64,000 nt of DNA from Ulva prolifera (taxonomy: Eukaryota; Chlorophyta; Ulvophyceae; Ulvales; Ulvaceae). The DNA is taken from contig CM041197.1 in the NCBI GenBank assembly GCA_023078555.1, positions 10,288,552 to 10,352,551 on the forward strand. Reading direction: 5' to 3'. The notes beneath the pieces were generated by a model. That model did not search any database, was not told the origin of the DNA, and worked only from the letters and a program-made list of their open reading frames with translations. A program made the position numbers and the translations under genes. How positions within the stretch are numbered: the first letter of the stretch is position 1; every line of letters begins with the position of its first letter. Below are positions 254 through 57,950 of this stretch, one piece after another.

Positions 254-553
254 CTATCGCGCAACGGCGCGGCAGGGCGTCGTGGAGATGTCGCGCATCG
301 CGTTCTCCAGGAACAGCCGCCGAGAGACCGCGCCGGCCCCTGTAGCCTCATCGGTAAGCCTGTTCAGGAACGCAAACGCAGCCGGGCCCACGCGACCGTA
401 TGTTTCATGCGACAGCGGGACCAGGCTGAGCCCCCCGCCCCCCGCGCGGCCGCACTTGTCGCGCTTCCGCCGGTTGGCGGCCTCCGCCGAGGCACCTTCG
501 CGCAGCACCGCAGCGAACGGTGGGAGCTCGAGCTGCAAGTGGGTGAGTGACAC
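254..553 (-). pseudogene. Fragment resembling the C-terminal tail of a LINE-type retroelement polyprotein
   Basis: An open frame on the minus strand runs about 99 codons and ends in a stop at its low-coordinate end. Its middle part (LVPLSHETYGRVGPAAFAF followed by a Leu/Ala-rich helix and an FLENAMRDIS-like stretch) has the arrangement I associate with the short tail that follows the reverse transcriptase domain in many algal and oomycete non-LTR elements. No reverse transcriptase catalytic motif is present and nothing upstream on the minus strand continues it, so it would be a 5'-truncated remnant. A TTGCAG just upstream could instead be an intron acceptor of a real exon. The assignment rests on recalled family resemblance and is tentative. 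Confidence 0.35.
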
Positions 554-8296: not shown

Positions 8297-8339
8297 GCAG
8301 CCGCATGTGTTACAAGGACAAAGGCAGCAGCCGCATGTG
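8297..8339 (-). mobile_element. 17-bp retroposon 3' end flanked by a 13-bp target duplication
   Basis: GCAGCCGCATGTG occurs at 8,297-8,309 and again at 8,327-8,339. The 17 bases between them read TGCCTTTGTCCTTGTAA on the minus strand, which is exactly the 3' end of the larger retroposons at 11,857-12,042 and 52,254-52,450. The layout (target duplication, extreme 5' truncation, end at TGTAA) fits target-primed reverse transcription that stopped almost at once. Confidence 0.7.
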
Positions 8340-11842: not shown

Positions 11843-12056
11843 CACTTCTTGCATGCGTCTGTGCGTGCGTGTATGGGTGTGTGGGTGTGTGCTTGGCGGT
11901 TTGCAGATCTGTGACGTTTGCTGCGCCGGTGATGGGTTTTCTGGGCGTGGTGGGTGTCGCGTGCGTGGGTGTCTGGGTGTTTGCTTCGTCTGTTTGCTTC
12001 TTTCGCGGTGCTGCCCGCCTTGCTGCCTTTGTCCTTGTAACACACTTCTTGCATGC
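11843..12056 (+). mobile_element. Retroposon, TGTAA-ended family 1, copy 1
   Basis: A 14-bp direct repeat CACTTCTTGCATGC (11,843-11,856 and 12,043-12,056) brackets a 186-bp insert. The insert begins GT-rich, continues through GGTTTGCAGATCTGTGACG and ends GCTGCCTTTGTCCTTGTAACA. A second copy with its own TSD lies at 52,241-52,463 on the same strand. No open frame is conserved between them. TGTAA is the chlorophycean polyadenylation signal, so these look like reverse-transcribed RNA 3' regions, either a SINE or fragments of a longer transcript. No A-box or B-box is evident, so a tRNA-type SINE is not supported. Confidence 0.75.
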
Positions 12057-13522: not shown

Positions 13523-13587
13523 ACGAAGCCGTAGGTTTGTTTTCTCCCGTTCACTCTTTTGTAAAGGATACCGACGAAGCCGTAGGT
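13523..13587 (+). mobile_element. Mini-retroposon, family 2, copy 1 (37-bp insert)
   Basis: The 14-bp repeat ACGAAGCCGTAGGT (13,523-13,536 and 13,574-13,587) brackets 37 bases that contain the family core CCCGTTCACTCTTTTGTAA followed by nine more bases. The same core occurs at 13,733, inverted at 13,873 and inverted at 57,090, each time in a different flank. Confidence 0.7.
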
Positions 13588-13683
13588 CCACGAGCTTGCA
13601 GCGGGACATTCAATTCACATCGCGGAATATCAGTCATGGCACCGATCAGGAGCGATCGCTCGCGGCCGTCTCGAGATAATCAC

Positions 13684-13768
13684 AGCACCGTGACGCAATT
13701 CGGATGAGATTCGGTTTCAGTGTTTGTTTTCTCCCGTTCACTCTTTTGTAACAAGCACCGTGACGCAA
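13684..13768 (+). mobile_element. Mini-retroposon, family 2, copy 2 (55-bp insert)
   Basis: The 15-bp repeat AGCACCGTGACGCAA (13,684-13,698 and 13,754-13,768) brackets 55 bases ending in the family core CCCGTTCACTCTTTTGTAA plus CA. The insert starts TTCGGATGAGATTCGG, the same point where the inverted copy at 13,873-13,926 starts, so this may be close to full length for the family. Confidence 0.7.
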
Positions 13769-13872: not shown

Positions 13873-13926
13873 TTACAAAAGAGTGAACGGGAGAAAACAA
13901 ACACTGAAACCGAATCTCATCCGAAT
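13873..13926 (-). mobile_element. Mini-retroposon, family 2, copy 3, inverted
   Basis: These 54 bases are the exact reverse complement of 13,698-13,751. I find no target duplication here. Together the two copies form a 229-bp inverted repeat (13,698-13,926) that mimics a MITE, but copy 2 has its own TSD, so two insertions are the simpler reading. Confidence 0.6.
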
Positions 13927-14293
13927 CAACTGCAACATACACTCACACACACACGAACACTACAACCGCACTCACAACTCAGTCCGGCAGGATCGCGGCC
14001 TCCAGGCCCGCATCATATCGCAACCCTTGCTCCCGAGAGATGACAAGCCCAGACTTCCGATACATATCCGCATTATAATGCAATATTGCCGCGCTGCAAC
14101 GACACCGACAACACCCGCAGCGCACACTGGACAGTGTGGCTGCGTGTGTGTGGATGCTGTGTCGGGAGAGACGTTCGTGTTCAACACTAGCTGTGTGTGT
14201 GTTCAAACCCGTTCACTCTTCTGTCACACATGTTTTCATCGACGTGGCCACGAGATACAGCTGCAAAGTACAGCTTGCAGTGCGTGACGCATA

Positions 14294-20646: not shown

Positions 20647-21000
20647 TGTGACGTAGACAAGGAGCAGATACGCTGTAACGTAGGCCCTGCTAACGGCAAT
20701 GAAGTGTCGCTGTTACAATGTACTCCGTGTGGATGTCAGGTTCACGGCAGTGCACATTCTGATGAAGACCACTGGACGGCGCTCCGCTATGAAGCACTTG
20801 GGAGTGAGATCAGCATGACATGTACGATCCATGTTGTTACCATAATAGAATCATGTTAACAACAGTGGTGGCTGGGTGTCTGTACCTAGTCATTGGCACA
20901 ACCATACCGGGTTCCGCATCAACTGCACATGCCGCGGGGATCAATGCCCCATACACCAACCCACAAGCACTCCGTATCCTGTGACATTAGCATTGGCAAA
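20647..21000. other. Upstream region of the transposase gene
   Basis: This stretch lies between the transposase N-terminal exon and the satellite. No gene is seen. The final about 100 bp lead directly into the first satellite unit without a recognisable boundary. Confidence 0.4.
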
Positions 21001-24000
21001 GGTGTGCCAGTGGCTGCCTCAGCTCCTTCACAAAAAATTCCGCATGTACACAGAAGCGGGAAATCAGCATGCACGTGCGCCGTATGCAGCCAGCACCCAA
21101 CCCAGCCTTGGGCTGCTGGAGTTCAAACTGCACAGTTCACTGCACATGTGAGTTGCCGAATGGATTTGCAGCTCAGGTGTGCCAGTGCCTGCCTCAGCTC
21201 CTTCACAAAAAATTCAGCATGTACACAGAAGCGGGAAATCAGCATGCACGTGCGCCGTATGCAGCCAGCACCCAACCCAGCCTTGGGCTGCTGGAGTTCA
21301 AACTGCACAGTTCACTGCACATGTGAGTTGCCGAATGGATTTGCAGCTCAGGTGTGCCAGTGCCTGCCTCAGCTCCTTCACAAAAAATTCAGCATGTACA
21401 CAGAAGCGGGAAATCAGCAGGCACGTGCGCCGCAAGCAGCCAACACCCAACCCAGCCTTGGGCTGCTGGAGCTCAAACTGCACAGTTCACTGCACATGTG
21501 AGTTACCGAATGGATTTGCAGCTCAGGTGTGCCAGTGCCTGCCTCAGCTCCTTCACAAAAAATTCAGCATGTACACAGAAGCGGGAAATCAGCATGCACG
21601 TGCGCCGTATGCAGCCAGCACCCAACCCAGCCTTGGGCTGCTGGAGTTCAAACTGCACAGTTCACTGCACATGTGAGTTGCCGAATGGATTTGCAGCTCA
21701 GGTGTGCCAGTGCCTGCCTCAGCTCCTTCACAAAAAAATCAGCATGTACACAGAAGCGGGAAATCAGCAGGCACGTGCGCCGCAAGCAGCCAGCACCCAA
21801 CCCAGCCTTGGGCTGCTGGAGTTCAAACTGCACAGTTCACTGCACATGTGAGTTGCCGAATGGATTTGCAGCTCAGGTGTGCCAGTGCCTGCCTCAGCTC
21901 CTTCACAAAAAATTCAGCATGTACACAGAAGCGGGAAATCAGCAGGCACGTGCGCCGCAAGCAGCCAGCACCAAACCCAACCTTGAGCTGCTGGAGTTCA
22001 AACTGCACAGTTCACTGCACATGTGAGTTGCCGAATGGATTTGCAGCTCAGGTGTGCCAGTGCCTGCCTCAGCTCCTTCACAAAAAATTCAGCATGTACA
22101 CAGAAGCGGGAAATCAGCATGCACGTGCGCCGTATGCAGCCAGCACCCAACCCAGCCTTGGGCTGCTGGAGCTCAAACTGCACAGTTCACTGCACATGTG
22201 AGTTACCGAATGGATTTGCAGCTCAGGTGTGCCAGTGCCTGCCTCAGCTCCTTCAAAAAAAATTCAGCATGTACACAGAAGCGGGAAATCAGCAGGCACG
22301 TGCGCCGCAAGCAGCCAGCACCCAACCCAGCCTTGGGCTGCTGGAGTTCAAACTGCACAGTTCACTGCACATGTGAGTTGCCGAATGGATTTGCAGCTCA
22401 GGTGTGCCAGTGCCTGCCTCAGCTCCTTCACAAAAAATTCAGCATGTACACAGAAGCGGGAAATCAGCAGGCACGTGCGCCGCAAGCAGCCAGCACCAAA
22501 CCCAACCTTGAGCTGCTGGAGTTCAAACTGCACAGTTCACTGCACATGTGAGTTGCCGAATGGATTTGCAGCTCAGGTGTGCCAGTGCCTGCCTCAGCTC
22601 CTTCACAAAAAATTCAGCATGTACACAGAAGCGGGAAATCAGCATGCACGTGCGCCGTATGCAGCCAGCACCCAACCCAGCCTTGGGCTGCTGGAGCTCA
22701 AACTGCACAGTTCACTGCACATGTGAGTTACCGAATGGATTTGCAGCTCAGGTGTGCCAGTGCCTGCCTCAGCTCCTTCACAAAAAATTCAGCATGTACA
22801 CAGAAGCGGGAAATCAGCAGGCACGTGCGCCGCAAGCAGCCAGCACCCAACCCAGCCTTGGGCTGCTGGAGTTCAAACTGCACAGTTCACTGCACATGTG
22901 AGTTGCCGAATGGATTTGCAGCTCAGGTGTGCCAGTGCCTGCCTCAGCTCCTTCACAAAAAATTCAGCATGTACACAGAAGCGGGAAATCAGCAGGCACG
23001 TGCGCCGCAAGCAGCCAGCACCAAACCCAACCTTGGGCTGCTGGAGTTCAAACTGCACAGTTCACTGCACATGTGAGTTGCCGAATGGATTTGCAGCTCA
23101 GGTGTGCCAGTGCCTGCCTCAGCTCCTTCACAAAAAATTCAGCATGTACACAGAAGCGGGAAATCAGCATGCACGTGCGCCGCAAGCAGCCAGCACCCAA
23201 CCCAGCCTTGGGCTGCTGGAGTTCAAACTGCACAGTTCACTGCACATGTGAGTTGCCGAATGGATTTGCAGCTCAGGTGTGCCAGTGCCTGCCTCAGCTC
23301 CTTCACAAAAAATTCAGCATGTACACAGAAGCGGGAAATCAGCAGGCACGTGCGCCGCAAGCAGCCAGCACCCAACCCAGCCTTGGGCTGCTGGAGCTCA
23401 AACTGCACAGTTCACTGCACATGTGAGTTACCGAATGGATTTGCAGCTCAGGTGTGCCAGTGCCTGCCTCAGCTCCTTCACAAAAAATTCAGCATGTACA
23501 CAGAAGCGGGAAATCAGCAGGCACGTGCGCCGCAAGCAGCCAGCACCCAACCCAGCCTTGGGCTGCTGGAGTTCAAACTGCACAGTTCACTGCACATGTG
23601 AGTTGCCGAATGGATTTGCAGCTCAGGTGTGCCAGTGCCTGCCTCAGCTCCTTCACAAAAAATTCAGCATGTACACAGAAGCGGGAAATCAGCAGGCACG
23701 TGCGCCGCAAGCAGCCAGCACCAAACCCAACCTTGAGCTGCTGGAGTTCAAACTGCACAGTTCACTGCACATGTGAGTTGCCGAATGGATTTGCAGCTCA
23801 GGTGTGCCAGTGCCTGCCTCAGCTCCTTCACAAAAAATTCAGCATGTACACAGAAGCGGGAAATCAGCATGCACGTGCGCCGTATGCAGCCAGCACCCAA
23901 CCCAGCCTTGGGCTGCTGGAGTTCAAACTGCACAGTTCACTGCACATGTGAGTTGCCGAATGGATTTGCAGCTCAGGTGTGCCAGTGCCTGCCTCAGCTC

Positions 24001-25743
24001 CTTCACAAAAAATTCAGCATGTACACAGAAGCGGGAAATCAGCAGGCACGTGCGCCGCAAGCAGCCAGCACCCAACCCAGCCTTGGGCTGCTGGAGCTCA
24101 AACTGCACAGTTCACTGCACATGTGAGTTACCGAATGGATTTGCAGCTCAGGTGTGCCAGTGCCTGCCTCAGCTCCTTCACAAAAAATTCAGCATGTACA
24201 CAGAAGCGGGAAATCAGCATGCACGTGCGCCGTATGCAGCCAGCACCCAACCCAGCCTTGGGCTGCTGGAGTTCAAACTGCACAGTTCACTGCACATGTG
24301 AGTTGCCGAATGGATTTGCAGCTCAGGTGTGCCAGTGCCTGCCTCAGCTCCTTCACAAAAAATTCAGCATGTACACAGAAGCGGGAAATCAGCAGGCACG
24401 TGCGCCGCAAGCAGCCAGCACCCAACCCAGCCTTGGGCTGCTGGAGTTCAAACTGCACAGTTCACTGCACATGTGAGTTGCCGAATGGATTTGCAGCTCA
24501 GGTGTGCCAGTGCCTGCCTCAGCTCCTTCACAAAAAATTCAGCATGTACACAGAAGCGGGAAATCAGCAGGCACGTGCGCCGCAAGCAGCCAGCACCAAA
24601 CCCAACCTTGAGCTGCTGGAGTTCAAACTGCACAGTTCACTGCACATGTGAGTTGCCGAATGGATTTGCAGCTCAGGTGTGCCAGTGCCTGCCTCAGCTC
24701 CTTCACAAAAAATTCAGCATGTACACAGAAGCGGGAAATCAGCATGCACGTGCGCCGTATGCAGCCAGCACCCAACCCAGCCTTGGGCTGCTGGAGCTCA
24801 AACTGCACAGTTCACTGCACATGTGAGTTGCCGAATGGATTTGCAGCTCAGGTGTGCCAGTGCCTGCCTCAGCTCCTTCACAAAAAATTCAGCATGTACA
24901 CAGAAGCGGGAAATCAGCAGGCACGTGCGCCGCAAGCAGCCAGCACCCAACCCAGCCTTGGGCTGCTGGAGTTCAAACTGCACAGTTCACTGCACATGTG
25001 AGTTGCCGAATGGATTTGCAGCTCAGGTGTGCCAGTGCCTGTCAGGAAAAGCGCCCACCCGAAGGTGTACTACTTTCCTTTGAGGATCTGGTCATATATA
25101 TACTTGAGTGCTGATGACTCATCATGACACCCCCCCTCACTCAAGGACCGTTGACTAGGATCCGAAAGCTTGGAAGGCGGACGCGTATCCTGGGTGCAGC
25201 TGCCCGGATTTGAACCCGCGTCTATGGAGGTGAAGATCCTCTCTATGACCACTCTCACCGATACCATGTCAGGAAAAGCGCCCACCCGAAGGTGTACTAC
25301 TTTCCTTTGAGGATCTGGTCATATATATACTTGAGTGCTGATGACTCATCATGACAGTGCCTGCCTCAGCTCCTTCACAAAAAATTCAGCATGTACACAG
25401 AAGCGGGAAATCAGCATGCACGTGCGCCGTATGCAGCCAGCACCCAACCCAGCCTTGGGCTGCTGGAGCTCAAACTGCACAGTTCACTGCACATGTGAGT
25501 TGCCGAATGGATTTGCAGCTCAGGTGTGCCAGTGCCTGCCTCAGCTCCTTCACAAAAAATTCAGCATGTACACAGAAGCGGGAAATCAGCAGGCACGTGC
25601 GCCGCAAGCAGCCAGCACCCAACCCAGCCTTGGGCTGCTGGAGTTCAAACTGCACAGTTCACTGCACATGTGAGTCGCCGAATGGATTTGCAACTCAGGT
25701 GTGCCAGTGCCTGCCTCAGGCCCTTCACAAAAAATTCAGCATG
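21001..25743 (+). repeat. 175-bp tandem satellite, about 25 copies, inside the CACTA element
   Basis: The unit begins GGTGTGCCAGTGCC and repeats every 175 bp (21,001, 21,176, 21,351 and on). Excluding the TRIM at 25,040-25,356 and its duplicated 5 bp, about 4.4 kb or 25 units remain. Units differ at a few diagnostic sites, such as CATGCACGTGCGCCGTATGC against CAGGCACGTGCGCCGCAAGC, and CCTTGGGCTG against CCTTGAGCTG. Almost every unit carries the G-box-like hexamer CACGTG. The many 165-codon overlapping frames arise because 175 is not divisible by three; they are not genes. The position between two divergent transposon genes suggests a spacer, enhancer or subterminal-like role, which is inference. 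Confidence 0.95.
25040..25356 (-). mobile_element. TRIM: miniature LTR retrotransposon, 317 bp
   Basis: Two identical 90-bp direct repeats (25,040-25,129 and 25,267-25,356) bracket 137 bp. Read on the minus strand each repeat starts TGTCATGATG and ends TTCCTGACA, the TG...CA ends of an LTR. Directly after the 5' LTR comes TGGTATCGGTGAGAG, close to the usual primer-binding site for initiator Met-tRNA (TGGTATC...). Directly before the 3' LTR is a purine tract GAGTGAGGGGGGGTG. A 5-bp target duplication GTGCC (25,035-25,039 and 25,357-25,361) splits one satellite unit, and removing element plus one GTGCC restores it. There is no gag or pol, so movement must rely on another element. LTR identity points to recent insertion. 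The internal part also has a B-box-like GGGTTCAAATCC. Confidence 0.9.
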
Positions 25744-26684
25744 CTTGTAACAGCTGCCATGCGTAACATGTACATTTGCACCCAGGGAATGGTGGGACGT
25801 GTGGTTTGTGGACATGAAAGTGAACTCTGCGTATGGCAGGTGGACAGTGGAGAGGAGTCCATGCCGGTAGAAAAGGCAAATCTGTACAGATCAGTGTCAC
25901 GAGTCGCGACACGTTTGGATTTGATGCAGTTTACATCCACGACTCTTTATTCTTCCCTAGAAAACTGTATCGAAGTATGATTTGGTGTGAAACACCGCGT
26001 CAAGCTGATTTAATTCCCACATACATTTCTGACTTGCTAGCTTTCGAGGTAAGCATCAGCAAGGCTGATGTCCCCAATGCTTGAAAAACTAATATTCGTG
26101 GAGGCAACCTTACTCCCCGCTTCCCTCTTAATTTGAGACCTGACGAATGGGAAATGGCATCGATTTTGCCCCTCGGCAAATGTACAGAGAGTTGGGTTTC
26201 CACCATTTCAGATTTATATCATGCTCGGATGCACCTGGCGCCTGCAAACACAGCCACAATATATTATAATTACAGCCTCTTGACTTTTTCAGGTTAGCTG
26301 TGGCGAGACACAGGTCGTGTCATTGACGAGTGCTAAAGGGCAGCAATCACAGACACATAAAAGGAGCAGCCACCATACCGCTCGTGCCATCTTTATGATG
26401 GCGTCGACGTTGACATTTGACTTCAGCACGATGATGTGACGGCAGACATGGACCGTCGCGACTAGATGGCGGAGCTGGGGTCTGGTGCTGCCTACGCCTT
26501 CGCTGTGGGGTATCCTCCCCCTACGCCACACGCACGCGGTGGCAACGCGCCTGGAAAACTTTGTCACGCCCAGCGAACGTCACTGAATCTGGCGACGGAA
26601 TCCGGTCACAAGCGAGCGCATCTCCGCAGCATTGTGGTATGACCGTCTAATCGTCGAGTGTGAGTTACTGCCAGATTTGCCACC
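25744..26684. other. Upstream region of the second CACTA gene
   Basis: No gene is supported here. The stretch lies between the last partial satellite unit and the start codon at 26,685 and would hold the promoter and 5' UTR. AT-rich patches such as ATATATTATAATTACAG (about 26,260) are present but I cannot single out a TATA box. Confidence 0.4.
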
Positions 26685-33563: not shown

Positions 33564-36500
33564 CGGTCAGCTTTCACAGAAATGGGCACTTTCAAATTTC
33601 GAAAACACTGCACGTCACTGAAACCGCAAAGCAGAATTCAATACGGATAACCCAGTTCACGTCCTTGATAACCAAATGTGCATGCTGTGTGAGCAGTTCC
33701 GGAGTGGAACTGGTGATCGCACTATTCAGCTTTTTTGCTGTGGTGGTCGTGTGGCTGACTCTGCAGCCCCCACCCCCCATGACAGGAGAACACTGTGGCT
33801 GCACCTCTAGGTTCACTGCAGCAGTTATGGCCTTGATTCTTTGGGGACATGTAGCTGACACACCAAGACATCACCTGACTCGAGCTCGCCGGTACACGTC
33901 TCCGTACCTGCAACGTAGCGTCGCTGGCGTGCACGCCTCGCCGCCCCCGCCAGCACGGCGTAAAGTCTATAAATATAGTTTGCAGATAGCTGTTGCAGTC
34001 GGAATTGAGTGCGGTGTGCCACAGGTTGCTCGAGTGCCTGTATCACTAGGCCGGTCACTCGGCTGTGCAAGAGCCTGTACTCCACCATTTACACAGTGCG
34101 GGCATTCTGTCGGCCACCGGAGACACCCTCTATTTCACTATGCCGTTCGTCACGTCTTTCATTTACTTGATTTGCTCGCCTGCTAGGGCATCGTAGCCCA
34201 TGCATTGCCACAAAACTGCTCCCTGTGCGCTGTGCATGGCTCGGTCAGGCCTCTCTCTCATGTTTTGATATGTTTATATGGCATTGCGCATGAAGTGCCG
34301 GTTTGTGCATGTGCTGACCGTATTCTCATTTTCTAAATTCCGTATTAAGCGTCCGTTGCAGCCGCCGCCTCTTCAGGCACATCAGGGATGCTGTGCATTG
34401 CACAATTCGGTGATCAGGTGGCGCCGCACCCGGCGCAAACCCGGCCGCACGGCCAACCCCGCGCCCGCGCCTGTTGGAGGCGTGTCACCTCAGCCACATT
34501 CGTACATAGTTTCGGCTCCCTGTCCGGCATTGGCGTACTAGACAGCGATTGACGGATATGTTAATGACGAGAGAGCAGCAGTTGTATGTTCTATGCACGC
34601 TGGGATGATGTCGCGCAGGCTATCACTGTATCCGTTGCGCCTGTCGCACATGACCTGCTCGCAATAGTTGATGATTCTTCACATGTGTGTGATCATGCGC
34701 GTAGTTGCAACATGAATGCTTCTGTTGCTTCTCGTGGATCGTCTCTGGCTAGTGCGGTCTGCCCGAGTTCGCAAGGGCCTGCAAGCGCGACCCGGTGCTG
34801 TCCGTGGCATGCAAGCGCTTCATCAGGGAGCAGTGTCTGGATGGCCGCACGATCGGCCCAGTCCGCAGCTACATCCAAATTTAATTCCCGTATTTACTAC
34901 ATGGTCGCTCGCAATCGTGCTCTCCGGGTCGGAAGTGCTGAAAGGATTGCACACAGGTCTCGTTGCTGAAGGCCTGAGCTGACAATGCTATCGGGCTCCA
35001 GTTAACCACAGCTGCAGCTGTTTAACACATCAGAGCACATACAAGTATTTCATGTGTTTAGCGACTCACAAAGCATCAGTTTTCACCTCCAGCATGCTGC
35101 ATGAGTGGCTCATGGAGCACGTGCCAGCAATATGGTACAGCCCCGACCACTGCAAGGTCACATATGCAGCCAGCTCGCTGCCACAGTACACTCGAGGTGG
35201 CATGCGATATTTTACCATTGGCTATTGCCCGCCTGCGTGTGCTGTCCTGACACTTTTGTCTTTGTGTGTCCTCTTGCTGGAATGAGCAGCATGCACAGCT
35301 CCTTGGAGCTTGAGAGCTGAGACAGCTTGTGCATGATGAGAAGGGTGTATGCTACACATATGTGTGACCTTGATCATGTGTGCTGTGTGTATTCCTCACA
35401 TTTGAGCCAGCAGCGCGGCGCATATGCACACACCGAGTCAGGTGTGCACACGGTCAGCTTTCACAGAAATGGGCACTTTCAAATTTCGAAAACACTGCAC
35501 GTCACTGAAACCGCTAAGCAGAATTCAATACGGATAACCCAGTTCACGTCCTTGATAACCAAATGTGCATGCTGTGTGAGCAGTTCCGGAGTGGAACTGG
35601 TGATCGCACTATTCAGCTTTTTTGCTGTGGTGGTCGTGTGGCTGACTCTGCAGCCCCCACCCCCCATGACAGGAGAACACTGTGGCTGCACCTCTAGGTT
35701 CACTGCAGCAGTTATGGCCTTGATTCTTTGGGGACATGTAGCTGACACACCAAGACATCACCTGACTCGAGCTCGCCGGTACACGTCTCCGTACCTGCAA
35801 CGTAGCGTCGCTGGCGTGCACGCCTCGCCGCCCCCGCCAGCACGGCGTAAAGTCTATAAATATAGTTTGCAGATAGCTGTTGCAGTCGGAATTGAGTGCG
35901 GTGTGCCACAGGTTGCTCGAGTGCCTGTATCACTAGGCCGGTCACTCGGCTGTGCAAGAGCCTGTACTCCACCATTTACACAGTGCGGGCATTCTGTCGG
36001 CCACCGGAGACACCCTCTATTTCACTATGCCGTTCGTCACGTCTTTCATTTACTTGATTTGCTCGCCTGCTAGGGCATCGTAGCCCATGCATTGCCACAA
36101 AACTGCTCCCTAGTGCGCTGTGCATGGCTCGGTCAGGCCTCTCTCTCATGTTTTGATATGTTTATATGGCATTGCGCATGAAGTGCCGGTTTGTGCATGT
36201 GCTGACCGTATTCTCATTTTCTAAATTCCGTATTAAGCGTCCGTTGCAGCCGCCGCCTCTTCAGGCACATCAGGGATGCTGTGCATTGCACAATTCGGTG
36301 ATCAGGTGGCGCCGCACCCGGCGCAAACCCGGCCGCACGGCCAACCCCGCGCCCGCGCCTGTTGGAGGCGTGTCACCTCAGCCACATTCGTACATAGTTT
36401 CGGCTCCCTGTCCGGCATTGGCGTACTAGACAGCGATTGACGGATATGTTAATGACGAGAGAGCAGCAGTTGTATGTTCTATGCACGCTGGGATGATGTC

Positions 36501-39500
36501 GCGCAGGCTATCACTGTATCCGTTGCGCCTGTCGCACATGACCTGCTCGCAATAGTTGATGATTCTTCACATGTGTGTGATCATGCGCGTAGTTGCAACA
36601 TGAATGCTTCTGTTGCTTCTCGTGGATCGTCTCTGGCTAGTGCGGTCTGCCCGAGTTCGCAAGGGCCTGCAAGCGCGACCCGGTGCTGTCCGTGGCATGC
36701 AAGCGCTTCATCAGGGAGCAGTGTCTGGATGGCCGCACGATCGGCCCAGTCCGCAGCTACATCCAAATTTAATTCCCGTATTTACTACATGGTCGCTCGC
36801 AATCGTGCTCTCCGGGTCGGAAGTGCTGAAAGGATTGCACACAGGTCTCGTTGCTGAAGGCCTGAGCTGACAATGCTATCGGGCTCCAGTTAACCACAGC
36901 TGCAGCTGTTTAACACATCAGAGCACATACAAGTATTTCATGTGTTTAGCGACTCACAAAGCATCAGTTTTCACCTCCAGCATGCTGCATGAGTGGCTCA
37001 TGGAGCACGTGCCAGCAATATGGTACAGCCCCGACCACTGCAAGGTCACATATGCATCCAGCTCGCTGCCACAGTACACTCGAGGTGGCATGCGATATTT
37101 TACCATTGGCTATTGCCCGCCTGCGTGTGCTGTCCTGGCACTTTTGTCTTTGTGTGTCCTCTTGCTGGAATGAGCAGCATGCACAGCTCCTTGGAGCTTG
37201 AGAGCTGAGACAGCTTGTGCATGATGAGAAGGGTGTATGCTACACATATGTGTGACCTTGATCATGTGTGCTGTGTGTATTCCTCACATTTGAGCCAGCA
37301 GCGCGGCGCATATGCACACACCGAGTCAGGTGTGCACACGGTCAGCTTTCACAGAAATGGGCACTTTCAAATTTCGAAAACACTGCACGTCACTGAAACC
37401 GCAAAGCAGAATTCAATACGGATAACCCAGTTCACGTCCTTGATAACCAAATGTGCATGCTGTGTGAGCAGTTCCGGAGTGGAACTGGTGATCGCACTAT
37501 TCAGCTTTTTTGCTGTGGTGGTCGTGTGGCTGACTCTGCAGCCCCCACCCCCCATGACAGGAGAACACTGTGGCTGCACCTCTAGGTTCACTGCAGCAGT
37601 TATGGCCTTGATTCTTTGGGGACATGTAGCTGACACACCAAGACATCACCTGACTCGAGCTCGCCGGTACACGTCTCCGTACCTGCAACGTAGCGTCGCT
37701 GGCGTGCACGCCTCGCCGCCCCCGCCAGCACGGCGTAAAGTCTATAAATATAGTTTGCAGATAGCTGTTGCAGTCGGAATTGAGTGCGGTGTGCCACAGG
37801 TTGCTCGAGTGCCTGTATCACTAGGCCGGTCACTCGGCTGTGCAAGAGCCTGTACTCCACCATTTACAGCAGTGCGGGCATTCTGTCGGCCACCGGAGAC
37901 ACCCTCTATTTCACTATGCCGTTCGTCACGTCTTTCATTTACTTGATTTGCTCGCCTGCTAGGGCATCGTAGCCCATGCATTGCCACAAAACTGCTCCCT
38001 GTGCGCTGTGCATGGCTCGGTCAGGCCTCTCTCTCATGTTTTGATATGTTTATATGGCATTGCGCATGAAGTGCCGGTTTGTGCATGTGCTGACCGTATT
38101 CTCATTTTCTAAATTCCGTATTAAGCGTCCGTTGCAGCCGCCGCCTCTTCAGGCACATCAGGGATGCTGTGCATTGCACAATTCGGTGATCAGGTGGCGC
38201 CGCACCCGGCGCAAACCCGGCCGCACGGCCAACCCCGCGCCCGCGCCTGTTGGAGGCGTGTCACCTCAGCCACATTCGTACATAGTTTCGGCTCCCTGTC
38301 CGGCATTGGCGTACTAGACAGCGATTGACGGATATGTTAATGACGAGAGAGCAGCAGTTGTATGTTCTATGCACGCTGGGATGATGTCGCGCAGGCTATC
38401 ACTGTATCCGTTGCGCCTGTCGCACATGACCTGCTCGCAATAGTTGATGATTCTTCACATGTGTGTGATCATGCGCGTAGTTGCAACATGAATGCTTCTG
38501 TTGCTTCTCGTGGATCGTCTCTGGCTAGTGCGGTCTGCCCGAGTTCGCAAGGGCCTGCAAGCGCGACCCGGTGCTGTCCGTGGCATGCAAGCGCTTCATC
38601 AGGGAGCAGTGTCTGGATGGCCGCACGATCGGCCCAGTCCGCAGCTACATCCAAATTTAATTCCCGTATTTACTACATGGTCGCTCGCAATCGTGCTCTC
38701 CGGGTCGGAAGTGCTGAAAGGATTGCACACAGGTCTCGTTGCTGAAGGCCTGAGCTGACAATGCTATCGGGCTCCAGTTAACCACAGCTGCAGCTGTTTA
38801 ACACATCAGAGCACATACAAGTATTTCATGTGTTTAGCGACTCACAAAGCATCAGTTTTCACCTCCAGCATGCTGCATGAGTGGCTCATGGAGCACGTGC
38901 CAGCAATATGGTACAGCCCCGACCACTGCAAGGTCACATATGCATCCAGCTCGCTGCCACAGTACACTCGAGGTGGCATGCGATATTTTACCATTGGCTA
39001 TTGCCCGCCTGCGTGTGCTGTCCTGGCACTTTTGTCTTTGTGTGTCCTCTTGCTGGAATGAGCAGCATGCACAGCTCCTTGGAGCTTGAGAGCTGAGACA
39101 GCTTGTGCATGATGAGAAGGGTGTATGCTACACATATGTGTGACCTTGATCATGTGTGCTGTGTGTATTCCTCACATTTGAGCCAGCAGCGCGGCGCATA
39201 TGCACACACCGAGTCAGGTGTGCACACGGTCAGCTTTCACAGAAATGGGCACTTTCAAATTTCGAAAACACTGCACGTCACTGAAACCGCAAAGCAGAAT
39301 TCAATACGGATAACCCAGTTCACGTCCTTGATAACCAAATGTGCATGCTGTGTGAGCAGTTCCGGAGTGGAACTGGTGATCGCACTATTCAGCTTTTTTG
39401 CTGTGGTGGTCGTGTGGCTGACTCTGCAGCCCCCACCCCCCATGACAGGAGAACACTGTGGCTGCACCTCTAGGTTCACTGCAGCAGTTATGGCCTTGAT

Positions 39501-42500
39501 TCTTTGGGGACATGTAGCTGACACACCAAGACATCACCTGACTCGAGCTCGCCGGTACACGTCTCCGTACCTGCAACGTAGCGTCGCTGGCGTGCACGCC
39601 TCGCCGCCCCCGCCAGCACGGCGTAAAGTCTATAAATATAGTTTGCAGATAGCTGTTGCAGTCGGAATTGAGTGCGGTGTGCCACAGGTTGCTCGAGTGC
39701 CTGTATCACTAGGCCGGTCACTCGGCTGTGCAAGAGCCTGTACTCCACCATTTACACAGTGCGGGCATTCTGTCGGCCACCGGAGACACCCTCTATTTCA
39801 CTATGCCGTTCGTCACGTCTTTCATTTACTTGATTTGCTCGCCTGCTAGGGCATCGTAGCCCATGCATTGCCACAAAACTGCTCCCTGTGCGCTGTGCAT
39901 GGCTCGGTCAGGCCTCTCTCTCATGTTTTGATATGTTTATATGGCATTGCGCATGAAGTGCCGGTTTGTGCATGTGCTGACCGTATTCTCATTTTCTAAA
40001 TTCCGTATTAAGCGTCCGTTGCAGCCGCCGCCTCTTCAGGCACATCAGGGATGCTGTGCATTGCACAATTCGGTGATCAGGTGGCGCCGCACCCGGCGCA
40101 AACCCGGCCGCACGGCCAACCCCGCGCCCGCGCCTGTTGGAGGCGTGTCACCTCAGCCACATTCGTACATAGTTTCGGCTCCCTGTCCGGCATTGGCGTA
40201 CTAGACAGCGATTGACGGATATGTTAATGACGAGAGAGCAGCAGTTGTATGTTCTATGCACGCTGGGATGATGTCGCGCAGGCTATCACTGTATCCGTTG
40301 CGCCTGTCGCACATGACCTGCTCGCAATAGTTGATGATTCTTCACATGTGTGTGATCATGCGCGTAGTTGCAACATGAATGCTTCTGTTGCTTCTCGTGG
40401 ATCGTCTCTGGCTAGTGCGGTCTGCCCGAGTTCGCAAGGGCCTGCAAGCGCGACCCGGTGCTGTCCGTGGCATGCAAGCGCTTCATCAGGGAGCAGTGTC
40501 TGGATGGCCGCACGATCGGCCCAGTCCGCAGCTACATCCAAATTTAATTCCCGTATTTACTACATGGTCGCTCGCAATCGTGCTCTCCGGGTCGGAAGTG
40601 CTGAAAGGATTGCACACAGGTCTCGTTGCTGAAGGCCTGAGCTGACAATGCTATCGGGCTCCAGTTAACCACAGCTGCAGCTGTTTAACACATCAGAGCA
40701 CATACAAGTATTTCATGTGTTTAGCGACTCACAAAGCATCAGTTTTCACCTCCAGCATGCTGCATGAGTGGCTCATGGAGCACGTGCCAGCAATATGGTA
40801 CAGCCCCGACCACTGCAAGGTCACATATGCATCCAGCTCGCTGCCACAGTACACTCGAGGTGGCATGCGATATTTTACCATTGGCTATTGCCCGCCTGCG
40901 TGTGCTGTCCTGGCACTTTTGTCTTTGTGTGTCCTCTTGCTGGAATGAGCAGCATGCACAGCTCCTTGGAGCTTGAGAGCTGAGACAGCTTGTGCATGAT
41001 GAGAAGGGTGTATGCTACACATATGTGTGACCTTGATCATGTGTGCTGTGTGTATTCCTCACATTTGAGCCAGCAGCGCGGCGCATATGCACACACCGAG
41101 TCAGGTGTGCACACGGTCAGCTTTCACAGAAATGGGCACTTTCAAATTTCGAAAACACTGCACGTCACTGAAACCGCAAAGCAGAATTCAATACGGATAA
41201 CCCAGTTCACGTCCTTGATAACCAAATGTGCATGCTGTGTGAGCAGTTCCGGAGTGGAACTGGTGATCGCACTATTCAGCTTTTTTGCTGTGGTGGTCGT
41301 GTGGCTGACTCTGCAGCCCCCACCCCCCATGACAGGAGAACACTGTGGCTGCACCTCTAGGTTCACTGCAGCAGTTATGGCCTTGATTCTTTGGGGACAT
41401 GTAGCTGACACACCAAGACATCACCTGACTCGAGCTCGCCGGTACACGTCTCCGTACCTGCAACGTAGCGTCGCTGGCGTGCACGCCTCGCCGCCCCCGC
41501 CAGCACGGCGTAAAGTCTATAAATATAGTTTGCAGATAGCTGTTGCAGTCGGAATTGAGTGCGGTGTGCCACAGGTTGCTCGAGTGCCTGTATCACTAGG
41601 CCGGTCACTCGGCTGTGCAAGAGCCTGTACTCCACCATTTACACAGTGCGGGCATTCTGTCGGCCACCGGAGACACCCTCTATTTCACTATGCCGTTCGT
41701 CACGTCTTTCATTTACTTGATTTGCTCGCCTGCTAGGGCATCGTAGCCCATGCATTGCCACAAAACTGCTCCCTGTGCGCTGTGCATGGCTCGGTCAGGC
41801 CTCTCTCTCATGTTTTGATATGTTTATATGGCATTGCGCATGAAGTGCCGGTTTGTGCATGTGCTGACCGTATTCTCATTTTCTAAATTCCGTATTAAGC
41901 GTCCGTTGCAGCCGCCGCCTCTTCAGGCACATCAGGGATGCTGTGCATTGCACAATTCGGTGATCAGGTGGCGCCGCACCCGGCGCAAACCCGGCCGCAC
42001 GGCCAACCCCGCGCCCGCGCCTGTTGGAGGCGTGTCACCTCAGCCACATTCGTACATAGTTTCGGCTCCCTGTCCGGCATTGGCGTACTAGACAGCGATT
42101 GACGGATATGTTAATGACGAGAGAGCAGCAGTTGTATGTTCTATGCACGCTGGGATGATGTCGCGCAGGCTATCACTGTATCCGTTGCGCCTGTCGCACA
42201 TGACCTGCTCGCAATAGTTGATGATTCTTCACATGTGTGTGATCATGCGCGTAGTTGCAACATGAATGCTTCTGTTGCTTCTCGTGGATCGTCTCTGGCT
42301 AGTGCGGTCTGCCCGAGTTCGCAAGGGCCTGCAAGCGCGACCCGGTGCTGTCCGTGGCATGCAAGCGCTTCATCAGGGAGCAGTGTCTGGATGGCCGCAC
42401 GATCGGCCCAGTCCGCAGCTACATCCAAATTTAATTCCCGTATTTACTACATGGTCGCTCGCAATCGTGCTCTCCGGGTCGGAAGTGCTGAAAGGATTGC

Positions 42501-45500
42501 ACACAGGTCTCGTTGCTGAAGGCCTGAGCTGACAATGCTATCGGGCTCCAGTTAACCACAGCTGCAGCTGTTTAACACATCAGAGCACATACAAGTATTT
42601 CATGTGTTTAGCGACTCACAAAGCATCAGTTTTCACCTCCAGCATGCTGCATGAGTGGCTCATGGAGCACGTGCCAGCAATATGGTACAGCCCCGACCAC
42701 TGCAAGGTCACATATGCATCCAGCTCGCTGCCACAGTACACTCGAGGTGGCATGCGATATTTTACCATTGGCTATTGCCCGCCTGCGTGTGCTGTCCTGG
42801 CACTTTTGTCTTTGTGTGTCCTCTTGCTGGAATGAGCAGCATGCACAGCTCCTTGGAGCTTGAGAGCTGAGACAGCTTGTGCATGATGAGAAGGGTGTAT
42901 GCTACACATATGTGTGACCTTGATCATGTGTGCTGTGTGTATTCCTCACATTTGAGCCAGCAGCGCGGCGCATATGCACACACCGAGTCAGGTGTGCACA
43001 CGGTCAGCTTTCACAGAAATGGGCACTTTCAAATTTCGAAAACACTGCACGTCACTGAAACCGCAAAGCAGAATTCAATACGGATAACCCAGTTCACGTC
43101 CTTGATAACCAAATGTGCATGCTGTGTGAGCAGTTCCGGAGTGGAACTGGTGATCGCACTATTCAGCTTTTTTGCTGTGGTGGTCGTGTGGCTGACTCTG
43201 CAGCCCCCACCCCCCATGACAGGAGAACACTGTGGCTGCACCTCTAGGTTCACTGCAGCAGTTATGGCCTTGATTCTTTGGGGACATGTAGCTGACACAC
43301 CAAGACATCACCTGACTCGAGCTCGCCGGTACACGTCTCCGTACCTGCAACGTAGCGTCGCTGGCGTGCACGCCTCGCCGCCCCCGCCAGCACGGCGTAA
43401 AGTCTATAAATATAGTTTGCAGATAGCTGTTGCAGTCGGAATTGAGTGCGGTGTGCCACAGGTTGCTCGAGTGCCTGTATCACTAGGCCGGTCACTCGGC
43501 TGTGCAAGAGCCTGTACTCCACCATTTACACAGTGCGGGCATTCTGTCGGCCACCGGAGACACCCTCTATTTCACTATGCCGTTCGTCACGTCTTTCATT
43601 TACTTGATTTGCTCGCCTGCTAGGGCATCGTAGCCCATGCATTGCCACAAAACTGCTCCCTGTGCGCTGTGCATGGCTCGGTCAGGCCTCTCTCTCATGT
43701 TTTGATATGTTTATATGGCATTGCGCATGAAGTGCCGGTTTGTGCATGTGCTGACCGTATTCTCATTTTCTAAATTCCGTATTAAGCGTCCGTTGCAGCC
43801 GCCGCCTCTTCAGGCACATCAGGGATGCTGTGCATTGCACAATTCGGTGATCAGGTGGCGCCGCACCCGGCGCAAACCCGGCCGCACGGCCAACCCCGCG
43901 CCCGCGCCTGTTGGAGGCGTGTCACCTCAGCCACATTCGTACATAGTTTCGGCTCCCTGTCCGGCATTGGCGTACTAGACAGCGATTGACGGATATGTTA
44001 ATGACGAGAGAGCAGCAGTTGTATGTTCTATGCACGCTGGGATGATGTCGCGCAGGCTATCACTGTATCCGTTGCGCCTGTCGCACATGACCTGCTCGCA
44101 ATAGTTGATGATTCTTCACATGTGTGTGATCATGCGCGTAGTTGCAACATGAATGCTTCTGTTGCTTCTCGTGGATCGTCTCTGGCTAGTGCGGTCTGCC
44201 CGAGTTCGCAAGGGCCTGCAAGCGCGACCCGGTGCTGTCCGTGGCATGCAAGCGCTTCATCAGGGAGCAGTGTCTGGATGGCCGCACGATCGGCCCAGTC
44301 CGCAGCTACATCCAAATTTAATTCCCGTATTTACTACATGGTCGCTCGCAATCGTGCTCTCCGGGTCGGAAGTGCTGAAAGGATTGCACACAGGTCTCGT
44401 TGCTGAAGGCCTGAGCTGACAATGCTATCGGGCTCCAGTTAACCACAGCTGCAGCTGTTTAACACATCAGAGCACATACAAGTATTTCATGTGTTTAGCG
44501 ACTCACAAAGCATCAGTTTTCACCTCCAGCATGCTGCATGAGTGGCTCATGGAGCACGTGCCAGCAATATGGTACAGCCCCGACCACTGCAAGGTCACAT
44601 ATGCATCCAGCTCGCTGCCACAGTACACTCGAGGTGGCATGCGATATTTTACCATTGGCTATTGCCCGCCTGCGTGTGCTGTCCTGGCACTTTTGTCTTT
44701 GTGTGTCCTCTTGCTGGAATGAGCAGCATGCACAGCTCCTTGGAGCTTGAGAGCTGAGACAGCTTGTGCATGATGAGAAGGGTGTATGCTACACATATGT
44801 GTGACCTTGATCATGTGTGCTGTGTGTATTCCTCACATTTGAGCCAGCAGCGCGGCGCATATGCACACACCGAGTCAGGTGTGCACACGGTCAGCTTTCA
44901 CAGAAATGGGCACTTTCAAATTTCGAAAACACTGCACGTCACTGAAACCGCAAAGCAGAATTCAATACGGATAACCCAGTTCACGTCCTTGATAACCAAA
45001 TGTGCATGCTGTGTGAGCAGTTCCGGAGTGGAACTGGTGATCGCACTATTCAGCTTTTTTGCTGTGGTGGTCGTGTGGCTGACTCTGCAGCCCCCACCCC
45101 CCATGACAGGAGAACACTGTGGCTGCACCTCTAGGTTCACTGCAGCAGTTATGGCCTTGATTCTTTGGGGACATGTAGCTGACACACCAAGACATCACCT
45201 GACTCGAGCTCGCCGGTACACGTCTCCGTACCTGCAACGTAGCGTCGCTGGCGTGCACGCCTCGCCGCCCCCGCCAGCACGGCGTAAAGTCTATAAATAT
45301 AGTTTGCAGATAGCTGTTGCAGTCGGAATTGAGTGCGGTGTGCCACAGGTTGCTCGAGTGCCTGTATCACTAGGCCGGTCACTCGGCTGTGCAAGAGCCT
45401 GTACTCCACCATTTACACAGTGCGGGCATTCTGTCGGCCACCGGAGACACCCTCTATTTCACTATGCCGTTCGTCACGTCTTTCATTTACTTGATTTGCT

Positions 45501-45644
45501 CGCCTGCTAGGGCATCGTAGCCCATGCATTGCCACAAAACTGCTCCCTGTGCGCTGTGCATGGCTCGGTCAGGCCTCTCTCTCATGTTTTGATATGTTTA
45601 TATGGCATTGCGCATGAAGTGCCGGTTTGTGCATGTGCTGACCG
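33564..45644 (+). repeat. Long-unit tandem array, 1,887-1,888 bp units, 6.4 copies
   Basis: Units start at 33,564, 35,451, 37,339, 39,227, 41,114, 43,001 and 44,888 and are almost identical, differing by a handful of substitutions and one-base indels. A 757-bp block (CGGTCAGCTTTCAC to GCATGTGCTGACCG) occurs seven times and a spacer of about 1,130 bp six times, so the array begins and ends with the block. Its outer ends are 8-bp inverted repeats CGGTCAGC/GCTGACCG, flanked by CCAG on both sides (33,560-33,563 and 45,645-45,648). Each block holds a TATAAATA (33,968 in the first). Frames of 70-248 codons recur in every unit but encode nothing I recognise, and none has the look of a transposase or reverse transcriptase. 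Confidence 0.95.
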
Positions 45645-52240: not shown

Positions 52241-52463
52241 CACAGTGAACATGCGTGTGTGGGTTTGGGTTTGTGGGTGTGTGGGTCTGTGCGTGTGTGT
52301 GCTGGTGTGTGGGTGTGTGCTTGGCGGTCTGCGGATCTGTGTCGCTTGCTGCGCCGGTGATGGGTGGGATGTTCGTGGGTGTCTTGGTGTTTGCTTCGTC
52401 TGCTTGCTCCTTTCGCGGTGCTGCCCGGCTTGCTGCCTTTGTCCTTGTAACACAGTGAACATG
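52241..52463 (+). mobile_element. Retroposon, TGTAA-ended family 1, copy 2
   Basis: The 13-bp repeat CACAGTGAACATG (52,241-52,253 and 52,451-52,463) brackets a 197-bp insert whose last about 140 bp align with the copy at 11,857-12,042, both ending GCTGCCTTTGTCCTTGTAA. A third CACAGTGAACATG at 52,203-52,215 belongs to a separate short tandem repeat in the 5' flank. Confidence 0.75.
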
Positions 52464-55643: not shown

Positions 55644-57950
55644 ATGATTTCTGGGTATGCCTCCCTCCAGCAGATTATCTTCCCTTATGATTAGTTTCGC
55701 GCTGAGTTCGATACGCAGCTCGCCATTGCAACGTGCCGTGACGTGTCGGCCATGCTGCGCCGGAAAGGTGCTGGTCACGATGGAACGTTCGACGATGTGC
55801 CCTGCATGCATACGTGCTGACAGAAGATCCGCCGGAGCTCTCCTTGGTGCTCATGATCATGGGGTCGTACATGAAGCCCTGGAACGTAAGGACGGCCATA
55901 GACTGGGATGCAGTGTGCTGTGGTGTCGTTTGCAATTGTGCAGCATTTTTAACAAAAGCGTTTGTAGTCTGGCCACAGGCTACTCTCAGAAGATGCCAGC
56001 GGTCAGCTGCCAGTGCACAGAATGCAAGGCTCACCTGATCACACATGCATGTGTTACGGCACCCCAATGCATCTGCCATGGCAGACACATATGTATACAT
56101 AATGATATCATGGTGTATTCTGGCAGTTGCCAGCCACACCGCTGACTTTTCCGGCCTGTGCAGAGGTATTCTGAGCGTGGTGACAATGGCGCTGGCCATG
56201 GGCGGCATGCCCGCTGAGGCCACCAAGCGCAGCTTCAAGGACATCAGCAGCGGCCTCTCCACGGGCAGCAGCCACCGCACCAAGACCACCAAGTCCAGCG
56301 GCAAGAAGACCGTCTCGGCATCCGTCAAGTGCAGCAGCAGCGCCTACGCCAAGTCGTACTCCGACTGGGAGAGCTCCTACATCAAGGCAGTCGCAAACGT
56401 GGTCAAGGACGTCTGCAGCAGCAAGTTCTCTGGCAGCACTGTCAAGGCCACCCAGAAGATGACCGGCTTCGCCAAGGCCTGGGCTCGCGTGCGCAGCCCC
56501 CCCCCTCTTTGCCTCCTGCTGCTGATGAGCACAGTCGTGTTGCTGCTTCAGCATGCTGTGCGTGCTGCAACACGCTGTATGGGTTTTCGGTGGGATCGGC
56601 CCGGAGTCCATGCGTCCATGTCCACATCTGTAGTTAGAAAACAATGCATTCGCAGCAACAACGGTCTCGACGTAGCTGCGGCTTCATCAAGGTGGGAGAT
56701 CGCTCATAGCCACTGCATGCAGGCGACCGCCAGCACAGCGGCAAAGTGTGTGTCCAAGACCAGGAACGGCGGCAAGGCGGAGGGCTGCGCGTACGCATCC
56801 GCTTCCGTCAAGGCGTTCGAGAAGGCCTTCGCCTCGGCCCACGCCTCCGCCTCCGCCGAGGCGTTCGCCAAGTACTGCACTTGCGCCAACGCCGAGGCCT
56901 GGTCCTTCGGCGACGCCAGCCTCTTTGTGAAGCTCGCCGCTGAGGCCTACGCCGAGGCTGAGTCCACTGCCTGCGCCTCTGGTGCGGCCCGTGCCTGCAA
57001 TTGCAACCTCTGGCCTGCTTGCCTGTGGTGTGCGATCACATGCATGAATTCAGGTTTACTGTACTTTACTTTACATGCGGTCACAGGCATTCACAAAAGA
57101 GTGAACGGGAGAAGCGGCCACAGGTGATCATAAGCGCCTTGCTTAGATATCTCGAATCGGTTGGGTAGCCTGCGAACGCACTGCAGCTGGCTGACCTTGA
57201 GTACTAAAAACAGTACAGGCCTCATGTGTGGGCCTGGACACAGCGCTGGGGCACAGGAAAATCATGTGCAGGCAAGTTCAGACTATGAGTGTGGCGTGCA
57301 GGCAACCAGATCTCCACCGCGTCCGCCTCTGTGGACTGCCAGGCCCACATCTTCGCTCAGACGTACGCCTTCGCCGCTGCCAAGGCCAGCGTGGCCGGCA
57401 AGTGCTACGGCAAGCACAAGAATGCCAAGGCCAGCACTGAGATCGAGGCCAAGGTCGACGCGCAGATCTACGACACCTCCAAGTGCGTCGTCAAGACAAA
57501 GAAGACGGGCCTCTCTGGCAACAAGACCAAGTCCAACGCCAAGACGCGCTCCGTGCGCCCTCGCTCCCCTATCGCTCCCCTGCCCCTGCGCTATCAGCAC
57601 AGTACCAAGGCCTTGTGGCGTGCCTACTCACACAGTCCCTTGCGGCCGTGGCATGCATACTCATACAGTCCCTGTGCTACACAAGCTCTGTTTGGTGATG
57701 GTTTTGTGGCCGTATGTTGCCGGTTTTGCCTGCCACACGCATGGATATCTGCTGGGCCTTTAAATTTGTGCTAGCAGCAGCTGCAGTGGCTGAGCAGTTG
57801 TCATCACGATTGCCAGATTGATTGTCATGTCGGGCGCCCTCCGCAGGGCGCGCATCAGCTCATGCGCATCCCAACCGATGAAGAGGACTAACGAACTGGC
57901 CTCATGTCTGATCTCAATGTGGCATGCAGAGGACTGTCCACAAGAAGTAG
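55644..57950 (+). CDS. Gene C: near-identical paralogue of gene A, five exons, 288 aa
   Basis: Exons 55,644-55,654, 56,164-56,488, 56,723-56,981, 57,302-57,552 and 57,930-57,950, with the same lengths and phases as gene A apart from one extra codon at the end (RTVHKK). Exon 1 is ATGATTTCTGG, giving a signal peptide starting MISGGILSVV. Compared with A, I count three substitutions across exons 1-4 (Ala to Ser in the leader, Thr to Lys in exon 2, Lys to Thr in exon 4). Introns 1 and 4 have no visible similarity to those of A, intron 3 is alike only over its first about 50 bp, whereas intron 2 is closely similar over its last 100 bp. The ten cysteines are conserved. Intron 3 contains a mini-retroposon (57,077-57,124) absent from A. 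Function unknown; secretion inferred from the leader. Confidence 0.8.
57077..57124 (-). mobile_element. Mini-retroposon, family 2, copy 4 (26-bp insert) in intron 3 of gene C
   Basis: GCGGTCACAGG at 57,077-57,087 and GCGGCCACAGG at 57,114-57,124 (10 of 11 identical) bracket 26 bases. On the minus strand these read TTCTCCCGTTCACTCTTTTG followed by TGAATG, the family 2 core with TGTAA altered to TGTGA. Confidence 0.6.

Follow-up and report, generated by a model that had tools for sequence, protein, structure and literature searches.

In the genome of the green alga Ulva prolifera (assembly GCA_023078555.1), two inserts of only 37 and 55 bp sit side by side, each between its own perfect target site duplications (TSDs), which raises the question of what kind of machinery leaves such small marks. 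They were found in a 64,000-nt stretch of contig CM041197.1 (positions 10,288,552 to 10,352,551, forward strand), called the window hereafter. An earlier note on this DNA had assigned them to a family 2 of mini-retroposons, and had suggested an active LINE-type machinery that recognises TGTAA-ended RNAs and often aborts early. The two inserts are exact as they had been described, with different TSDs of 14 and 15 bp. Together with the other places in the window that carry the same 3' end, they are arranged as follows (positions are those of the window).

13523–13536, plus strand: upstream TSD of insert 1, ACGAAGCCGTAGGT, perfect, 14 bp
13537–13573, plus strand: insert 1, 37 bp, the last 30 nt of a LINE (2 nt of which overlap the TSD) and 9 nt of 3' filler, AGGATACCG
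13574–13587, plus strand: downstream TSD of insert 1, ACGAAGCCGTAGGT, 14 bp
13684–13698, plus strand: upstream TSD of insert 2, AGCACCGTGACGCAA, perfect, 15 bp
13699–13753, plus strand: insert 2, 55 bp, the last 54 nt of the LINE (1 nt of which overlaps the TSD) and the filler CA
13754–13768, plus strand: downstream TSD of insert 2, AGCACCGTGACGCAA, 15 bp
13873–14132, minus strand: longer 5'-truncated copy of the parent LINE, about 260 bp in two aligned pieces, comprising the 3'UTR and the last 46 codons of the ORF
14208–14226, plus strand: degenerate core with 2 mismatches, no TSD in the automated scan
57089–57113, minus strand: 25-bp insert of the LINE 3' end, its core at 57091–57109 with 1 mismatch

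With up to 3 mismatches allowed, the 19-base core shared by these copies matches the window five times, compared with a mean of 0.03 in 100 shuffled sequences. Further copies had been proposed at 13,873 and 57,088, and both indeed carry the same 3' end, but the former is not tiny, since it runs on into the ORF, and the repeat around the latter is imperfect. At 13873, the alignment used by the automated TSD scan ended at 202 nt, short of the true 5' end, and inspection of the 5' junction by eye gave merely a low-complexity resemblance, with no TSD resolved. The insert at 57089–57113 lies between 12-bp repeats (57114–57125 and 57077–57088) that agree in 10 of 12 bases by eye, where the automated scan reported none.

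A parent sequence for the core was sought by reading 5' from it, and a LINE with exactly such a 3' end was found: the longer copies share a 3'UTR and then a reading frame, the parent ORF being one of 1199 codons (L022:2510-6106:-). Its 3'UTR extends about 106 nt beyond the stop codon and ends in CTCCCGTTCACTCTTTTGTAA, which is the core. The ORF contains a reverse transcriptase domain (RVT_1, residues 483–683, E 6.2e-11), and the whole ORF matched no other Pfam family at E≤0.1. A group II intron reverse transcriptase model also matched, with E 1.3e-5, far below the cut-off of that model, and a phmmer search gave three chains of solved R2 proteins as the sole relevant solved relatives, all of them weak (E 0.0057–0.013). 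In the PDB, the whole ORF matched a diphosphate synthetase best, but this was rejected as a probable product of low complexity. On the C-terminal side of the reverse transcriptase, a CKC-x9-H-x3-C motif can be seen by eye at residue 989, followed by RHD, RGD...VD and an E..K-like stretch. This order, CCHC-like and then PD-(D/E)xK-like, is what we take to be that of the LINEs with a restriction-like endonuclease (RLE), and the parent LINE may encode an endonuclease of the RLE type. The C-terminal 459 amino acids had no Pfam match and no useful PDB match for an endonuclease; in the N-terminal 402 amino acids of this single ORF, no APE endonuclease was detected (no Pfam family at E≤5). A protein search of the genome, in which 39 of 8597 candidates were scored, returned at least 11 full-length matches to the ORF at 99–100% identity, 10 of 11 without an internal stop. 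Such near-identical, mostly stop-free ORFs suggest that the LINE family has been active recently.

Several relatives of the parent were also seen. One internally deleted element (L073:27-1519) joins ORF codons 1–483 to the last 42 nt and has a 10-bp TSD-like flanking repeat by eye, which suggests template jumping and a very short 5'UTR. A related fragment on the minus strand of the window (278–517) has 37% amino acid identity to the parent ORF over 83 residues (E 7e-6). Another LINE relative, at L060, shows 41% identity over 105 residues and is then followed, by eye, by CTCTGTCCTTTGTAA, and a diverged LINE copy at L067, 57–85% identical in pieces, ends in the family 2 core.

In the genome, of 88.9 Mb in 44 contigs, the exact core has 921 occurrences and the reversed word none. 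The sample studied comprises 91 distinct copies, for which up to 2 mismatches to the core were allowed, 64 of them being exact; 61 of the exact copies come from contig C1, being among the first 100 places listed, all of which lie on C1, and 3 come from the window (the loci L080 and L081 stand outside all counts). Aligned at their 3' ends, as the earlier note had proposed for a check, the exact copies show a wide spread of 5' truncation points: they retain from 19 to at least 1219 nt, with a median of 57 nt, and while all 64 keep 19 nt, 30 keep 60 nt, 12 keep 130 nt and 4 keep 300 nt. As these copies were located by their 3' end, 3' truncations would escape the count. Across the whole genome, exact words at about 19, 53, 130, 800 and 3700 nt from the 3' end occur 921, 447, 289, 55 and 31 times, respectively, corresponding to a loss per nucleotide that falls from 0.020 to 0.006, 0.0025 and 0.0002 (the second word being placed at 55); these counts are approximate, for they mix truncation with divergence, and words in the ORF also occur in partial copies without the 3' end. 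A constant stopping rate along the LINE fits neither the word counts nor the sampled copies. The truncation of LINEs is usually ascribed to falling processivity as the RNA is copied. In this family, the apparent per-nucleotide loss over the first tens of bases exceeds that at 800–3700 nt about 100-fold, which points to a distinct early-abort step, and the idea of a LINE-type machinery that often aborts early is supported by the parent, the TSDs and this gradient. Inserts even shorter than the 19-nt core were also looked for, and discarded as a line of evidence: two of eight other TTTTGTAA sites in the loci had a TSD-like repeat, one of them likelier a tandem duplication, compared with none of five TTCTGTAA sites and none of 47 occurrences of eight control words in the loci.

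To detect TSDs, the sequence at the fitted truncation point of each copy was compared with that at its 3' end for direct repeats, with alignments of up to 1200 nt that may stop early at indels; the parent copy at L022 exceeds this span, so its 5' junction lies outside the test. A TSD with a score of at least 10 was found in 45 of the 91 copies, compared with 0.55% of 542 mispaired flanks, and at a score of at least 12 the figures were 31 of 91 and 0 of 542. Among the exact-core copies, sampled from the 921, the test was positive in 38 of 64; the other 26 gave no TSD at a score of 10 or more, for which age, nesting and the limits of the search may be part of the reason. The inserts of the 45 TSD-bearing copies have a median length of 55 bp and range from 17 to 516 bp, with 4 of at most 25 bp, 11 of at most 40, 24 of at most 60 and 36 of at most 100. 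The minimum of 17 bp is that of L059, whose TSD has one mismatch and for which an alternative drawing gives about 21 bp. TSD length peaks at 13–14 bp within a range of 10–23 bp, 30 of the 45 TSDs begin with A (p 6e-10, with 23% A assumed), and A is frequent at positions −4 (24/45) and −5 (21/45) of the target. At the 3' junction there are usually 0–9 unrelated nucleotides between TGTAA and the TSD, and no poly(A). The 5' junctions of the 31 copies scoring at least 12 comprise 7 with filler, 3 that are blunt and 21 with 1–7 nt common to element and TSD. Microhomology of at least 1 nt was thus present in 21 of 24 unfilled junctions (null 45%, p 2e-5), and of at least 2 nt in 13 of 24 (null 15.6%, p 1.5e-5), the nulls being derived by hand from a simulated null (27% for at least 1 nt) and a 25% chance extension on the other side.

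The end TGTAA is not confined to this LINE. The window holds further TSD-flanked inserts with such an end:

11857–12042, plus strand: 186-bp insert of another TGTAA-ended family, ending GCTGCCTTTGTCCTTGTAACA, TSD CACTTCTTGCATGC
52254–52450, plus strand: second insert of that family, 197 bp, TSD CACAGTGAACATG
8310–8326, minus strand: 17-bp insert of that family, TGCCTTTGTCCTTGTAA, TSD CACATGCGGCTGC at 8297–8309 and 8327–8339
62205–62264, minus strand: third sequence type, 60-bp insert ending TTTCATTGTAAGC, TSD CGATTGCAATGCACA

The 3' end of the other family, GCTGCCTTTGTCCTTGTAA, has 522 exact copies in the genome, and we take this family to be family 1 of the earlier note. Outside the tandem arrays of the window, a TSD follows 6 of 62 TGTAA sites, compared with 5 of 624 sites of eleven control words (p 1.4e-4). 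The six comprise the two inserts at 13,523–13,768, three of the GCTGCCTTTGTCCTTGTAA family and one of the third type. A search independent of the core, over 340,762 bases of loci and the window, gave 104 filtered direct-repeat pairs. In 35 of them the enclosed insert carries TGTAA within its final 17 nt, and family 2, for which the loci had been picked, accounts for 27 of the 35. The words TTTGT (45) and TTGTA (44) score higher than TGTAA in this set, partly because both overlap variants of the same end.

We consider it probable, at roughly 0.88, that the inserts are 5'-truncated copies of the autonomous LINE and arose by target-primed reverse transcription that passes through a strong early-abort phase. 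The tiny inserts are LINE copies truncated to an extreme degree on the 5' side, and form no element class of their own. The LINE protein would first nick one DNA strand, with a loose preference for A at −5/−4 and at the first TSD base. Copying of the LINE RNA would then begin at the invariant 3' end, UUUUGUAA, in many cases preceded by a few additional nucleotides. Copying would usually end within the first tens of bases, the second strand would be cut about 13–14 bp away, and the short cDNA may anneal to the upstream strand by a match of one to a few bases, so that fill-in would yield the TSD. The steps would follow one another in this order, UGUAA may be the RNA end recognised by the LINE enzyme, and the shortness would come from an early stop of synthesis and not from RNA breakage or from second-strand priming that sets in early. 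Target-primed reverse transcription is a known mechanism; what is unusual is the very short size of most products and a TGTAA end common to more than one family. In the titles and abstract openings of the literature on very short LINE insertions, TGTAA-ended LINEs and algal RLE LINEs, no inserts this short appear. With hundreds of natural products, the early-abort step becomes open to study from sequence alone, and some caution is called for, as very short TSD-flanked insertions can be LINE products.

The same inserts might be read in other ways. A non-autonomous SINE of about 55–60 nt, moved by the LINE, could yield most of the tiny inserts while the LINE yields the longer ones only. Retention of 41–60 nt in 19 of the 64 exact-core copies would suit it, as would the several copies, insert 2 of the window among them, that start near ATTCGGATGAG. 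However, the 5' starts scatter from 19 to more than 1200 nt with no common 5' end seen, the longer copies run unbroken into the LINE 3'UTR and ORF, and an Rfam scan of the window found no RNA family, so we regard such a SINE as improbable. Slightly less probable still is that staggered double-strand breaks took up free fragments of LINE cDNA or RNA during repair, with no target-primed synthesis. Microhomology and filler at 5' junctions are also typical of end joining, and the clustering of the copies (19 of the 99 gaps between the first 100 listed core places are 1 kb or shorter, compared with 0.93 expected) could mark break hot spots. Repair of this kind is at odds with the fixed TGTAA 3' end and variable 5' end of the sampled copies, although these were located by their 3' end, with the narrow TSD lengths around the mode and the target base preference, and with the share of TGTAA-ended inserts in the core-independent search, whose loci had been selected as carriers of family 2.

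Later deletion of 5' parts, rather than an early stop of reverse transcription, seems to us very improbable as the cause of the shortness. The element at L073 described above makes clear that internal deletion or template jumping occurs, but 45 copies have a TSD at the truncation point or at most 21 nt from it (the range to which the search was confined), and a deletion would usually remove the upstream TSD copy.

Compared with known systems, LINE integration by target-primed reverse transcription with an early abort has its closest parallels in arthropod R2 and R1, which share target-primed reverse transcription and 5' truncation, and whose truncated 5' junctions are described with 1–5 nt of microhomology and extra bases (PMC2718515). 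Ancestral-type R1 likewise has 14-bp TSDs (PMC2718515). R1 and R2 target fixed sites in rDNA, whereas the algal LINE is dispersed with a loose base preference; its copies often retain fewer than 60 nt, unlike those of R1/R2, and R1 has an APE endonuclease, none being detected in the algal ORF. The RLE clades CRE, R2, R4, NeSL (with Utopia) and HERO resemble it in having a reverse transcriptase followed by CCHC-like and PD-(D/E)xK-like motifs, seen by eye in our case, and no APE domain (PMC4640811), and many non-specific families are reported from the HERO clade (PMC4640811). The reverse transcriptase of the algal LINE matches solved R2 proteins weakly, with a best E of 0.0057. Among green algal LINEs, the L1, RandI and RTEX elements share the host group (PMC3747384). 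The 3' repeats of green algal RTEX families include (CTTGTAA)n, close to the CCTTGTAA end of the other TGTAA family of the window, and UnaL2 ends in TGTAA repeats (PMC3747384). The algal LINE differs from these in its single TGTAA with no repeat tract, followed by the 0–9 nt of unrelated filler in most TSD-bearing copies, and from APE-type LINEs (L1, RTE, RTEX and CR1) in that no APE domain was detected in its ORF. Like SINEs, its products are short, TSD-flanked and have a 3' end in common with a LINE, but they show no defined 5' end or head, and longer copies continue into the LINE ORF.

Late-branching Chlorophyta are described as using UGUAA for their poly(A) signal (PMC1868727), so that the likely signal of the host and the TGTAA end of the LINE are the same. 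A wider proposal, on which we would lean towards doubt, is that several LINE families end at the host poly(A) signal UGUAA, which would double as the recognised RNA end, and that an enzyme with an abortive-initiation phase turns most integrations into scars of about 17–60 bp. If this is true, the scars would supply TSD-flanked micro-insertions throughout the genome and would so far have been overlooked. Regarding the host, the genome search gave no match for rbcL, which suggests that the assembly lacks the plastid genome. With each exon counted separately, there are 38 chlorophyll a/b-binding matches in the genome, one of which reads as a typical LHCII, with a light-harvesting polyprotein and many LHCII chains as its best solved relatives.

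Some copies lie in complex arrangements. At L003 and L010, two inserts of opposite orientation have TSDs that nearly touch; at L003, both presumed first nicks fall, by eye, within about 2 bp on opposite strands, and at L074 the TSDs of two opposite-orientation inserts touch or overlap by eye. Nested cases were found at L008, L074 and L080, the last two with inserts at or in the 3' end of an older copy. A preference for insertion into the family's own older copies was considered and rejected, with no enrichment claimed: 3 of 45 TSDs contain at least 10 nt of element sequence, compared with 222 of 4000 random 14-mers of the window. A 33-bp TSD-flanked insert on the minus strand of L007 (about position 1660) consists of the 3' end and an inverted piece of itself (CACTCTTTTCAAAAGAGTCTTTTGTAACGGTCG), and looks like a snap-back product. 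Apart from the inserts, ORFs of 243–248 codons recur every ~1887 bp at about 35327–45510 of the window, which suggests a long tandem array; one of these ORFs had no Pfam match. Another tandem array, at 21000–25821, has a 175-bp unit with 25 listed copies, 23 at 96% or more and two at 71% and 77%, and is broken near a perfect 90-bp direct repeat (25040–25129 and 25267–25356).
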